IMG/VR virus record: IMGVR_UViG_3300042938_001022
Location: 1-21,011 of that record
Strand: one strand, 5' to 3'
DNA length: 21,011 nt
From: a virus
The notes below the pieces were generated by a model, which was not told the DNA's origin, did not search any database, and saw only the letters and a list, made by a program, of their open reading frames with translations. Position 1 is the first letter of the stretch; the number at the start of each line of letters is the position of its first letter. This document shows positions 9,494-13,035 of this stretch, in pieces. The position numbers and the translations under genes are program-made.

Positions 9494-9769
9494 ATGAACA
9501 TTTTAGAAAAGGCAAATGAGATAATTAATTTGCGAGTTGAAGAGAAAGAAAGAATGTATGGTCCATTTGAAGAAGGAATGGAACGAGCAGCGATGATTGC
9601 TTCAGGGTGTACAGGCAAGGAATTTACGGCTAGCGATATGTATATATGCCTAGTGGCTTTAAAAATGTCTAGGCAGTCTTATAATCACAAAGAGGATAAC
9701 CTATTAGATGCTGTTGCTTATCTAGCTAGTTTAAATAATTATAACAATAATAAAAAATGTAAAATATGA
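9494..9769 (+). CDS. All-alpha NTP pyrophosphohydrolase-like protein (DUF6378-like)
   Basis: This 91-residue helical protein has 'ERMYGPFEEGMERAAMIASG', 'TASDMYICLVALKMSRQSY' and 'HKEDNLLDAVAYLASLNNY'. The last stretch is like the E/D..D metal-binding helix of MazG/dUTPase-type all-alpha pyrophosphohydrolases, and the whole resembles phage DUF6378 proteins. If active, it would cleave a nucleoside triphosphate to monophosphate plus pyrophosphate. It directly precedes, and overlaps by four bases, the first gene of the putative base-modification cluster, so trimming a dNTP pool is a sensible role. The first metal-binding EExxE-type helix is less clear than in the MazG-like protein at 13061. Confidence 0.5.
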   Translation: MNILEKANEIINLRVEEKERMYGPFEEGMERAAMIASGCTGKEFTASDMYICLVALKMSRQSYNHKEDNLLDAVAYLASLNNYNNNKKCKI

Positions 9770-10659
9770 AAAGAGCAATAATTGGGATTTTAAATAACCC
9801 AGCAACTTCTTTAAATTCTCATTCTGCAGGAATGGTTGAAATAGTAAGCAAATTATTTAACGCTGACATTTTAAATGATCGTGATGATTGGGATCAATAT
9901 GATGAGTTGATTATTTATCATGGTCCTAATTTTAAACCTGGTTCTTTTAATGTAATTGGTGGAATTAATGATGCCATTTTAGTAAGAGCAAAAAAATTAA
10001 ATGAATTTAAAAAAAGCATTTTATCTCTTGATGGTTTTCAATTATCAGAATTTTCAATTAAAAGAAAATTATTTCTTTATGACGAAGTTGATAATTACAA
10101 AACAACAGAATTGCCAAAAAGATCAAATTTAGTTATTGGAGATAGCCATTCGTTGTCAGTTTGGCCAAATGAAAATTATACTATTTCTAGAAATGATGGT
10201 AAAACCTTATATGGCTTTTTAAAATTAGATGTAGATCTGTCTGCTTATGATCATATAATTATGTATTTTGGCAATATCGATCTAAGATTTCATTTAGCTA
10301 GACAACCAGATCCGATAGAAGCTACAAAAAAATTATTTAAAAACTACATTAATTACGCTTCAAAGTATAATATAACCTTAACTACTTTACTTCCTGTAGA
10401 AGATGAGTCTCGAAAAATACCTCAATCAGGTCAGTACAAAGGCAAAAACTTTTTTGGATCAATAGAGCTAAGAAAAGAAATAAGAAACGTTGCAAACAAA
10501 ATAATAATCGAATCAGGATTAAAATACATTGAATGGCCTGAAACTTATCTAAATGAAGAAGGAAATTTAAGTTTTGATGCAATGGAACCTAAGCAATCTG
10601 TTCACTTAAGACCAAAATTTTATATTAGAAATATTAATAACCAACCTAAACTATTTTAA
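9766..10659 (+). CDS. SGNH/GDSL hydrolase-like protein in modification cluster
   Basis: This 297-residue protein has two parts. The N-terminal ~115 residues show an alternating strand/helix pattern ('RAIIGILN...', 'DELIIYHGPNF') of unknown type. The rest has SGNH-hydrolase-like blocks: G125-D-S127-H ('NLVIGDSHSL'), 'MYFGNIDLRFHL' (169-172 GNID in place of GxND) and 'DAMEPKQSVHL' with D271 and H280 as possible catalytic acid and base. This would predict an esterase, deacetylase or acyltransferase using S127. The gene is extremely AT-rich: hand counts give 11, 17, 15 and 12 G+C of 60 for lines 10021, 10081, 10201 and 10321, against 28-29 of 60 in capsid and terminase samples, a hint of separate origin. 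It overlaps its upstream neighbour and is followed after one base by the next gene. Catalytic role and substrate are unknown. Confidence 0.55.
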   Translation: MKRAIIGILNNPATSLNSHSAGMVEIVSKLFNADILNDRDDWDQYDELIIYHGPNFKPGSFNVIGGINDAILVRAKKLNEFKKSILSLDGFQLSEFSIKRKLFLYDEVDNYKTTELPKRSNLVIGDSHSLSVWPNENYTISRNDGKTLYGFLKLDVDLSAYDHIIMYFGNIDLRFHLARQPDPIEATKKLFKNYINYASKYNITLTTLLPVEDESRKIPQSGQYKGKNFFGSIELRKEIRNVANKIIIESGLKYIEWPETYLNEEGNLSFDAMEPKQSVHLRPKFYIRNINNQPKLF

Positions 10660-10660
10660 A

Positions 10661-11572
10661 ATGTTAAAACAATTCACTGATTACTACTCTAAAGCAAAAA
10701 AAATGCAAGAGTTAAAATTCCAAGGTAAAAATTGGACAAAAGAAGATATTAATGATGATCTAGTATGGAACATCCCAATCTATGATGTCGTTAATAGACG
10801 GTATGCAGCCTTTAGTTCTTTGCCAGAAGCAATTAAATATAAAGATAAAGATCCAAAGAAAAATGGTATTTATTTTGATAGCTTAGGTGATAAATTAAAC
10901 TCTGATAATTTTATTAAAATGTGTTATCTTTTTAGACTTTGTGGTTCTGGTATTAATTACATCCCTAAAGTTAAAGATCAAAAACCTTTTGGAACACATG
11001 GCTTTGGAAATTTTTGGATCGTAGAACAATTACGGAATGGCTCATGTTTGCATGAAGATTGGCTTAAAGCAATACCTGAGAATAGATTTTGCGATGTAAA
11101 AGGATATTTATTACCAATGATCAAAGGAGGCCTTAGGAATTATATAATTAATGAATCAATGGATCTAGTTAACTATCTTACAGATATAATAAACACATCT
11201 GATAAAACTGGAATAAAAGAAATAGTTGACAAAGGAAATGAATGGCTATTAAAAAAAGGTTATAATCGACAAAACTTTGTGCTAACAGCATTTGCTATGG
11301 ACATGGCAGAATATTTTCCTAATTTAGTTGATCAAGAATCAGATGTATATGTAGGAAGCAATGCAAAAAAATGCCTTAACATGATCTTGCCAAAAATGAA
11401 TACTGATAAAGCGTTAAGATATCTTTGTAATCTTACAGGCAATTTTAGTAAACCTTACGACATGGAAGACGTCGCATGTGACTTTATTAGATACATTGAG
11501 AACTTTCAATCCGAAGGACATATAAAAGCAAACAACAATATAATTTATAAAAACAATATAAGCCATGAATAA
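10661..11572 (+). CDS. aGPT-Pplase / amino acid:DNA transferase-like protein
   Basis: This 303-residue, mostly helical protein resembles the alpha-glutamyl/putrescinyl-thymine pyrophosphorylase (aGPT-Pplase, also called amino acid:DNA transferase) group. Those enzymes have a DNA-glycosylase-like fold and displace pyrophosphate from an activated hydroxymethylated base in DNA with an amine such as an amino acid. Pointers are 'CYLFRLCGSGINY' (88-100), 'GTHGFGNFWIVEQL' (111-124), 'DVYVGSNAKKCLNMILP' (228-244) and the C-terminal 'YDMEDVACDFIRYIE' (266-280), a position where family members have an E..LCE-type motif. The neighbours, a TS-family hydroxymethylase and a PLP enzyme, are the typical genomic partners of this group. 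No base-phosphorylating kinase is seen in the window. The assignment is by pattern memory and needs a profile search. Confidence 0.5.
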   Translation: MLKQFTDYYSKAKKMQELKFQGKNWTKEDINDDLVWNIPIYDVVNRRYAAFSSLPEAIKYKDKDPKKNGIYFDSLGDKLNSDNFIKMCYLFRLCGSGINYIPKVKDQKPFGTHGFGNFWIVEQLRNGSCLHEDWLKAIPENRFCDVKGYLLPMIKGGLRNYIINESMDLVNYLTDIINTSDKTGIKEIVDKGNEWLLKKGYNRQNFVLTAFAMDMAEYFPNLVDQESDVYVGSNAKKCLNMILPKMNTDKALRYLCNLTGNFSKPYDMEDVACDFIRYIENFQSEGHIKANNNIIYKNNISHE

Positions 11573-12401
11573 AGTAGAAAAGTTTACCGTAACCAATTCT
11601 AATTACAATATGGATTTAGTATACACTAGAGATGAATATTTAGAAATGGTTGAAGATTTCAACAGTAGTTTTAATGATCCTATAATTGAAGATTATGATG
11701 GCATTAAAGTAGTCAGAGAAGATTTATTAGAAGTAGGGTCGAAAGCAAGAGCTGGAGAAGCATTAATTGCAAATTGTAAATCAGATACAATTGTCTATGT
11801 TCAACCAAGATTTGGCTATGCAGGAATTTCATTGACTCAATTGTGTAAAAAGTACAATAAAAAGCTTGTATTATTTATGCCAAGCTCAAAAGAAATATCA
11901 GAGCACCAGGCTTATTGTATTGAAAACGGATGTGAATATCACTTTCATAGAATAGCTGCCATGCCTAACTTAAACATCATAGCTAAGAATTATGCTAAAC
12001 AAATTGGAGCGTTTTTTATTCCTTTAGGTTTAAAGCATCCTTTAGTTACTGCCATGATCATAAAGACTGCAATGAAAATAGAAGAGCCTAAAAGCTTTTG
12101 GACTGCCTTTTCAACAGGTGTTTTAAATAGAGCATTACAAATTGCTTGGCCAAATGCTATAGCAAATGGTTTAGCTGTGTCTAGAAATATACATGATGGA
12201 GAAAAGGGAACAGCTAACGTAGTAGGTCACTACCAAAATTTTAGTTCTGACAGTAAAATAAAGCCTCCGTTTCCTAGTGCGTCTAATTATGATGCAAAAG
12301 TCTGGGAATATTTACAACCAGGAGATTTGTTCTGGAATGTAGCTGGTAATTTAAAATCTAACTTAGATAAAAAAACAATTAATTCATTTAGAAACTGGTA
12401 A
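11565..12401 (+). CDS. Fold-type II PLP-dependent enzyme
   Basis: This 278-residue protein looks like a compact member of the tryptophan synthase beta / ACC deaminase / cysteine synthase superfamily. K60 in 'EVGSKARAGEALI' is the likely Schiff-base lysine (compare GNKxRKL). 'VYVQPRFGYAGISLTQLCKK' (77-96) corresponds to the substrate-binding loop and helix, 'KLVLFMPSS' to the next Rossmann strand, and 'AFSTGVLNRAL' (181-191) to the glycine-rich phosphate-binding loop. It would act on an amino acid: elimination, replacement, deamination or decarboxylation. In thymine-hypermodifying phages PLP enzymes remodel the amino acid added to the base; by position (8-base overlap with the transferase gene) the same is inferred here. 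At under 280 residues it is shorter than free-amino-acid enzymes of the family (about 310-400). Confidence 0.6.
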   Translation: MNKVEKFTVTNSNYNMDLVYTRDEYLEMVEDFNSSFNDPIIEDYDGIKVVREDLLEVGSKARAGEALIANCKSDTIVYVQPRFGYAGISLTQLCKKYNKKLVLFMPSSKEISEHQAYCIENGCEYHFHRIAAMPNLNIIAKNYAKQIGAFFIPLGLKHPLVTAMIIKTAMKIEEPKSFWTAFSTGVLNRALQIAWPNAIANGLAVSRNIHDGEKGTANVVGHYQNFSSDSKIKPPFPSASNYDAKVWEYLQPGDLFWNVAGNLKSNLDKKTINSFRNW

Positions 12402-12402
12402 C

Positions 12403-13035
12403 ATGAAATATTATAACGCACAACATGCATTTGAAGATTTGTACACTAGCATTAGTGACAATGGAAATAATTTTGCAGATACTAAGGCACAATTTAACGT
12501 TGGCTTTTACATAATGAATCCTCAAGATAATGTAATTAAAACAGAATTTAGAAAATGGAATCATGACTATGCAGAATATGAGTGGCAATGGTATCTATCT
12601 GGAAATCCTGACGCATCTGAGATATCTAAAAGAGCTCCAATATGGTTAAGCCATATGGACGAAAAAAACCACGTTAGATCAAACTATGGTTGGCAATGGT
12701 TGCGAAAAGATCAATTAAAAAATGTTATAGATAAACTATCTGAATATAAAGATACTAGACAAGCTGTGATTTCAATATATGATGGCAAAGAAATAGATAC
12801 TTATTACAAAGATACTCCTTGCACATTGTCCATTCATTTTCAAATTATAAATGATTTACTTTGCATGACGGTTAACATGAGGTCTAACGATTTATGGTTC
12901 GGCTTTTGCAACGATCAATATTGCTTTAGTGAACTTCAAAAAATGATGGCACAAGAATTAAATATTAAAACAGGATGGTACTACCATTTTGCAAGCAACA
13001 TACACATTTACAATAATTTTCTAAATAAACAATAA
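12403..13035 (+). CDS. Thymidylate-synthase-family nucleotide hydroxymethylase, probably dCMP-type
   Basis: This 210-residue protein is a TS-family enzyme that adds a one-carbon unit from methylene-tetrahydrofolate to C5 of a pyrimidine monophosphate. Catalytic Cys is C140 ('DTPCTLSIHFQI'). R160-S-N-D binds phosphate, and H201 and Y203 ('NIHIY') match the sugar-binding pair. E60 matches the general-base Glu. Spacing from C140 to H201 equals that in E. coli TS (C146 to H207), so the residue matching TS N177 is D171. Asp at this position is the hallmark of T4 dCMP hydroxymethylase (C148/D179), so dCMP rather than dUMP is the likely substrate and hydroxymethylation rather than methylation the likely reaction. 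At 210 residues it is shorter than TS (264 in E. coli). It starts one base after the PLP enzyme gene. Confidence 0.8.
   Translation: MKYYNAQHAFEDLYTSISDNGNNFADTKAQFNVGFYIMNPQDNVIKTEFRKWNHDYAEYEWQWYLSGNPDASEISKRAPIWLSHMDEKNHVRSNYGWQWLRKDQLKNVIDKLSEYKDTRQAVISIYDGKEIDTYYKDTPCTLSIHFQIINDLLCMTVNMRSNDLWFGFCNDQYCFSELQKMMAQELNIKTGWYYHFASNIHIYNNFLNKQ

Follow-up and report, generated by a model that had tools for sequence, protein, structure and literature searches.

We report a viral gene cassette in which, as we consider reasonably probable, a folate-dependent dCMP 5-hydroxymethylase is combined with three proteins that tailor 5-hydroxymethylcytosine (5hmC) in DNA, perhaps with an amino acid. The cassette lies in a stretch of 21,011 nucleotides (IMG/VR record IMGVR_UViG_3300042938_001022; hereafter the window), and its genes are listed in Table 1. 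The residues of the thymidylate synthase (TS)-fold enzyme, its TS fold, the rigid gene set around it, and the recurrence of that set with enzymes resembling T4 gp42 are established, and they frame the more conditional proposals made below for the three neighboring proteins, i.e., the BGT-like/SGNH protein, U303, and the PLP enzyme (the trio).

Table 1. Cassette features and their positions in the window.
Feature	Position	Strand	Remark
DUF6378 protein, 91 aa	9494..9769	+	lies upstream in all testable U303 cassettes
297-aa protein; N-terminal T4 beta-glucosyltransferase (BGT)-like segment (N62-x-x-G65-G66), C-terminal SGNH-like half (GDS127H, GN170ID, SVH280)	9766..10659	+	
U303, nearly all-helical protein; fold predicted to resemble amino acid:DNA transferases / HhH DNA glycosylases	10661..11572	+	no family match by sequence
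PALP-like PLP enzyme (fold-type II), 278 aa, K60 in GSK60-x-R62	11565..12401	+	PHROG 7093, same as phage M6 gp52
TS-fold dCMP hydroxymethylase (predicted)	12403..13035	+	210 aa; D171 = ThyA N177 = T4 gp42 D179
D171 codon GAT	12913..12915	+	computed from ORF start 12403, residue 171
MazG/PRA-PH-like nucleotide pyrophosphohydrolase, 114 aa	13061..13405	+	candidate dCMP supplier

The TS-fold Enzyme Carries the Residues of a dCMP Hydroxymethylase

The TS-fold protein matches Pfam Thymidylat_synt at 5.6e-24. An earlier note on this DNA had proposed that C140, R160, H201, and Y203 keep the spacing of C146, R166, H207, and Y209 in E. coli ThyA, and the alignments bear this out with a constant offset of 6. 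Its further claim, that D171 falls without a gap on ThyA N177 and on D179 of T4 gp42 (the T4 dCMP hydroxymethylase, dCH), holds in both sequence and profile alignments, for which the ThyA and gp42 sequences were taken as in their database records. C140 is aligned with C148 of T4 gp42, the stretch RSND..FGF.ND common to the two proteins holds D171/D179, and the sole gap column close to D171 is an insertion in the hmdU enzymes of phages M6 and PaMx11. The AlphaFold model of the protein (mean pLDDT 96.7) is matched in fold by MilA, the mildiomycin CMP 5-hydroxymethylase (Z 26.4, the best), AfhB (Z 25.9), T4 dCH (Z 22.8), and ThyA (about Z 22). Since the fold comparison reports ranges and no residue pairs, the residue match rests on the sequence and profile alignments. 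MilA is also the best PDB match by sequence (9.4e-20), and in the profile search MilA and T4 dCH score 1e-25 vs. 8e-17 for AfhB. With its length of about 210 aa, the window protein lacks the C-terminal tail of TS, which closes on folate.

A shift by one residue, which would place N170 at the N177 position, was tested and is excluded on two grounds. In the alignment with the T4 dCH profile, N170 pairs with the residue preceding D179. In loci picked via the U303 gene, and thus blind to the TS, 64 distinct TS were found, three of them fragments without the D171 column; D171 is Asp in all of the remaining 61, while the N170 position is Asn in 53 and Ile in 8. D171 is therefore the constrained residue and N170 is not the selector. 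The conservation of D171 is beyond chance; it is also Asp in 58/58 of the TS in loci chosen via the TS itself, a count biased by the peptide WFGFCNDQ being among the six used for that search.

The rest of the active site points to the same substrate. A passage of PMC6400193 on T4 dCH names E60 as activating methylene-THF, S94, Y96, and D145 as serving hydroxymethylation, D171 as contacting the pterin, as well as C148 and D179, and counterparts of all of these are present in the window protein (E60, S93, Y95, D137, D163, C140, and D171, respectively). Among the distinct TS of the U303-chosen loci that have the column, the catalytic pair is invariant (C140 61/61, E60 62/62), S93 and D137, which match S94 and D145 of T4 dCH, are kept in 61/62 and 60/61, and D163 and G167 are kept in 61/61. 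Excerpted text of PMC5175136 describes that Ser and Arg replacing Ala176 and Lys133 of MilA shift the preference from CMP to dCMP; the window protein has S161 and R119 at these positions, as dCMP enzymes do, and a MilA-type CMP hydroxymethylase, with Ala176 and Lys133, was rejected on this basis. In the part of the MetaGPA study considered here (PMC8670742), positions 147 and 177 best split the TS of cytosine-modified contigs from those of unmodified ones, and the window protein has T141 and D171 there. The earlier note's choice of dCMP over dUMP as the substrate is thus backed by D171, T141, S161/R119, S93, and D137, and the protein is very likely a dCMP hydroxymethylase, as predicted from its residues. 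Residues E60, S93, D137, T141, S161, and D163 further agree with a T4-gp42-type dCMP hydroxymethylase that depends on folate, and not with a TS, MilA, or the RB69/AfhB dCMP 5-hydroxylase. In a tree of 35 TS, a T4-gp42-like clade (100/99) stands apart from the window-like sequences; the tree does not require the Asp to have arisen independently in each.

A Rigid Gene Set Around the TS Gene

The gene order of the cassette is DUF6378, BGT-like/SGNH protein, U303, PLP enzyme, TS, and MazG. From 201 U303 relatives among pattern matches we kept 80 loci, all with the U303 ORF. The PLP gene lies directly downstream of U303 in 79 of them (the other is cut off), and the SGNH-type protein lies directly upstream in 75; in two further loci (L049 and L054) it is fused with U303 into a protein of 639 aa, and the remaining three are cut before it. 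DUF6378 is found in 74 (six cut), the TS within 3 kb in 70 and farther away in one, being absent in nine loci that end within 2.5 kb, and MazG in 64, with 14 loci cut and two lacking it. A search of 50,697 phage records, cultured phages included, turned up no U303 relative.

Other loci, chosen via the TS, contain DUF6378, TS, and MazG either with no intervening gene or with a SAM methyltransferase in between. These loci without the trio suggest that TS, MazG, and DUF6378 form an apparent core, and the trio looks like one of several swappable tailoring sets. The SAM methyltransferase (about 252–267 aa) replaces the trio between DUF6378 and an Asp-type TS in L101:2944-3717, L099, L125, L120, and L096; the Pfam scan covered the L101 protein. 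According to the portion of PMC8670742 used, PRA-PH co-occurs with TS in modified contigs. We also considered MazG or DUF6378 as a relative of T4 gp56 and rejected this, as hhalign detected no relationship of either protein with gp56.

The PLP enzyme matches PALP at 0.0053, under the cut-off, and phrog_7093 at 2.7e-36 (33-260 on 14-278/279), a profile that M6 gp52 matches at 2.2e-159. K60 of the GSK-x-R motif is conserved between the window protein and M6, where the amino acid:DNA transferase (ADDT) gene (PF18724) directly precedes gp52, the same order as in the U303-PLP pair. PLP enzymes of the PALP-like kind act on amino acids. Relatives annotated as DNA modification methylase are present in the Erythrobacter phage R6L and the Microcystis phage Mae-JY30 (L155, L156), inside a longer gene in R6L and next to ParB-like genes in Mae-JY30.

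The earlier note spoke of aGPT-Pplase partners, and such an identity of U303 was not confirmed: Pfam, PHROG, PDB-profile, and hhalign searches were all negative, the predicted fold alone points there, weakly, and we rejected the name. The conflict that the note saw between a cytosine enzyme and the thymine-directed chemistry of its neighbors rested partly on this name. The U303 model (pLDDT 91.4, nearly all helix) matches BFVD proteins named amino acid:DNA transferase (1.2e-10 and 6.1e-5) and aGPT-Pplase1 (9.6e-3). Its top PDB fold match by VIA-align is 8z2n, PaMx11 gp46, a 5-PmdU glycinyltransferase (201 residues aligned, 3.7 Å, 8% identity), with a Z of 10.3 that is within the tool's common range for helical models, followed by the AGOG glycosylase (Z 9.1); Foldseek found no PDB match under E 0.1. 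By sequence, U303 matches none of ADDT, HMUDK_hel, and aGPT-Pplase. PF18724 was detected in 0/47 members, 0/9 distant members, and 0/16 U303 contigs, while M6, PaMx11, and PhiW-14 were positive, and PaMx11 gp46 ranked 101 of 163 in hhalign. A small-template hhalign of U303 was likewise negative, a comparison so powerless that it missed even HMUDK_hel pairs joined by Pfam. U303 is thus ADDT-like by predicted fold, weakly so, and not a member of the family.

A Protein That Joins BGT-like and SGNH-like Parts

The 9766–10659 protein itself matches no Pfam family, and the PDB profile search of its family returned chance rows only. The Pfam T4 beta-glucosyltransferase model picks up 3/26 family members (8.3e-5 for the best of them), and record searches with this model give 12–14 bits for proteins of this type, under the cut-off, vs. 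1e-99 for T4 itself. The family aligns with T4 BGT in hhalign with a probability of 91.8, and when 163 phage proteins were ranked for the SGNH family, T4 BGT came first (90.7), the next seven rows reaching at most 2.9. The likeness is confined to the N-terminal segment, to about residue 98, and includes N-x-x-GG (N62 and G66 in 125/125, G65 in 124/125); we take the shared region to be the DNA-acceptor side of BGT. The remainder of the protein differs from BGT and is SGNH-like, with S127 of GDSH in 125/125, N170 in 123/125, and H280 in 124/125, which we take to be the SGNH pattern. A full GT-B protein with a sugar-nucleotide domain was not found here, the match being to the N-terminal segment only.

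Relatives of this protein occur in other gene contexts. In the Aeromonas phage 44RR2.8t, ORF233c (L153:8001-10388) is a 795-aa fusion of an SGNH-type protein with a stretch weakly like HMUDK_hel (0.0036, under the cut-off); this phage further encodes a separate ThyA as well as a T4-gp42-like enzyme that bears the complete residue signature, and represents a cultured test case. Together with the SGNH-U303 fusions, the 44RR fusion supports a working pair of the SGNH protein and its helical partner. The SGNH protein neighbors HMUDK_hel proteins above the cut-off in L122 and L167. In L122:1680-8149 (also in L121), the genes encode DUF6378, SGNH, myo-inositol-1-phosphate synthase, a 126-aa protein, an FkbM methyltransferase, HMUDK_hel, MazG, and an Asp-type TS, and this variant cassette suggests an inositol-related cytosine modification. 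Inositol-1-phosphate synthase is also found by the SGNH protein in L167. The SGNH protein adjoins a gene like C5-cytosine DNA methylases in L167:4893-10144 and L163:9095-10294 (both scanned) and in L164, L165, and L168, and a T4-gp42-like TS lies upstream in all five of these loci (L163, L164, L165, L167, and L168).

A Second Clade Probably Links the Trio to Cytosine

The 9766–10659 family, searched against GTDB contigs, yielded nine loci, three of which (L163, L166, and L169) carry U303-like, PLP, and SGNH genes together. All seven TS that could be read in these nine loci have the Asp, and six are 47–65% identical to T4 gp42; for the TS of L166, which nonetheless has the T and D, the closest match is PaMx11 gp51. 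A viral scan with the U protein of L169 gave 104 relatives, of which 80 loci were kept as clade 2. The PLP enzyme is found in 73/80 and SGNH in 67/80 of these. T4 gp42 is the best match of the TS in 63/80 loci, with no other type of TS as the best match; the other 17 loci have no TS, nine of them being cut off. The Asp is present in 45/45 distinct clade-2 TS. Between the U and PLP genes sits one (L163:6145-7131) whose product of about 330 aa has neither a Pfam nor a PHROG match; relatives of this protein occur in 48/80 clade-2 loci.

The trio accompanies dCMP hydroxymethylases of two distant kinds, and no TS seen beside it lacks the Asp. This is our main argument that the trio works on cytosine, and we consider it likely that it acts on hydroxymethylcytosine. 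Of the two ways out of the conflict that the earlier note had offered, this favors the first, that the neighbors act on a cytosine derivative, given that the module recurs with T4-gp42-like enzymes and the 9766–10659 protein has a BGT-like segment.

Comparison With Known Systems

The window TS agrees with T4 gp42 in the Asp that matches N177 and in every active-site residue named above, although identity is 31% over 132 columns, the lengths differ (210 vs. 246 aa), and the window enzyme lies outside any glucosylation gene set. MilA, the closest structure, differs at the two positions that we discussed above (K133/A176 for CMP vs. R119/S161). In M6 thymidine hypermodification, the ADDT gene is directly followed by that of a phrog_7093 PLP enzyme, and both M6 and PaMx11 combine a TS-fold hydroxymethylase with a helical ADDT protein, where the window has its TS-fold enzyme and the weakly ADDT-like U303. 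By contrast, the M6 and PaMx11 TS (gp58 and gp51), like that of Ackermannvirus maane, have no Asp at the 177 position and have Asn after the catalytic Cys, and these three presumably belong with hydroxymethyl-uracil chemistry. M6 and PaMx11 also possess a 5-hmdU DNA kinase, whose place the BGT-like/SGNH protein may take in the window. The kinase model PF18748 was detected in 0/16 U303 contigs and 0/6 clade-2 contigs, which may be incomplete; M6 and PaMx11 were positive in both scans and maane in the clade-2 scan, while PhiW-14 was missed, so the model misses some kinases. The known activation step is thus not seen in these contigs, and the BGT-like/SGNH protein may be the natural candidate to fill it. 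Finally, the 5hmC carbamoyltransferase phages of MetaGPA resemble the window in having, in the text of PMC8670742 consulted, an Asp177-type TS and PRA-PH in cytosine-modified contigs, but none of the ten window proteins scanned has a carbamoyltransferase domain.

A Proposed Pathway and Its Alternatives

We infer a pathway in which the activities, the order of the steps, the incorporation into DNA, the amino acid, and the chemistry of the final base are all conditional. MazG would probably split dCTP and so feed dCMP to the TS-fold enzyme, where C140 would attack C6 of dCMP, D171 would read and protonate the cytosine ring, E60 would open methylene-THF, and S93 and D137 would direct water to the methylene, yielding 5-hydroxymethyl-dCMP. 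This product would be incorporated into phage DNA, where its hydroxymethyl group would be the target of the trio. The BGT-like/SGNH protein might recognize and activate 5hmC, and U303 might flip the base and attach a small nucleophile, for which an amino acid is the most likely candidate. The PLP enzyme might trim the attached amino acid, a role for which M6 gp52, beside its ADDT, is likewise positioned. An amino-acid origin of the added group is quite conceivable, if somewhat short of probable.

The trio might instead add a group of another kind (a polyol, acyl, or other group) to the hydroxymethyl product of the same TS-fold enzyme. The pairing of SGNH relatives with inositol-1-phosphate synthase and an HMUDK_hel protein in L122 and L167 makes the SGNH protein compatible with non-amino-acid chemistry, and U303 has no sequence match to any amino acid:DNA transferase. 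We nevertheless regard this alternative as unlikely, as the PLP enzyme is present in 79/79 testable U303 cassettes and M6 has the same ADDT-PLP pair. More tentatively, and with some doubt, the two kinds of chemistry could belong to one branch of cytosine hypermodification, in which a BGT-derived 5hmC-recognition segment and an SGNH half replace the kinase and the helical partner picks the group, U303 an amino acid that is then PLP-trimmed and HMUDK_hel-type proteins a group such as inositol.

A different alternative concerns the TS-fold enzyme, which could be a flavin-using dCMP 5-hydroxylase that needs no folate, like RB69 ORF048 and AfhB. AfhB of phage HY126, to which RB69 ORF048 is nearly identical, is deposited both as a dCMP hydroxylase and as a riboflavin-dependent monooxygenase (the latter in the title of 9iqc, which also names dCMP and FAD), and passages of a 2026 paper describe such TS-superfamily enzymes as 5-hydroxy-dCMP synthases (PMC13390438). 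RB69 ORF048 has D at the D171 position, and since these hydroxylases bear the Asp, Asp at 177 is a marker of cytosine and not of hydroxymethylation as such. The fold of AfhB is nearly as close to the window model as that of MilA, and the missing C-terminal tail would also suit a flavin enzyme. On the other hand, AfhB scores below MilA and T4 dCH in the profile search, and RB69 ORF048 has N at the pterin-binding D163 and V at G167, and with them departs from the RSND..G motif; the window family keeps both residues throughout. At the catalytic E60, also kept in the family, RB69 ORF048 has F in two of three alignments and E in the third. With these differences, the last of them alignment-dependent, we rejected the flavin hydroxylase, which we consider very improbable, and hydroxymethylation stays our main reading. 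The Bacteroides phage BF486P2 encodes two Asp-type TS (L152:7138-7899 and 9971-10651), the first of which has L at the catalytic Glu position and may be a different, perhaps hydroxylase-like, enzyme.

It is still less probable that the enzyme methylates dCMP to 5-methyl-dCMP. The N177D change makes TS a dCMP methylase, as stated in the portion of PMC8670742 used, but the window family conserves D137 and S93, whose T4 dCH counterparts are tied to hydroxymethylation in the passage of PMC6400193 cited above, and the 9766–10659 protein resembles an enzyme that uses 5hmC. Enzymes of the dCMP deaminase type work on the dNMP pool. Later deamination to a final thymidine derivative, the other option of the earlier note, has dCMP deaminase relatives in 36/80 clade-2 loci in its favor, but we rejected it as unneeded and hardly credible, given that nothing found requires it, the ten window proteins scanned include no deaminase, the Asp-type TS is constant over the module, which also turns up with T4-gp42-like enzymes.

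Implications

Amino-acid-type hypermodification is known from thymidine phages, and our best reading of the cassette is that it is a cytosine counterpart. Asp-type TS with tailoring enzymes are already known, while the pairing of cytosine with a PLP/ADDT-like set and a BGT-like/SGNH protein is new within the searches made. The open-access literature that we searched, outside which the main pathway papers lie, contained no amino-acid or inositol hypermodification of cytosine. The cassette is common in environmental phage contigs, with 201 U303 relatives and 104 second-clade relatives among pattern matches. The source is a virus of bacteria, and the decorated cytosine perhaps shields the viral DNA against bacterial defenses. 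If this reading is true, it would bring with it a further class of DNA bases, novel 5hmC-acting enzymes, and a new means of evading bacterial defense.
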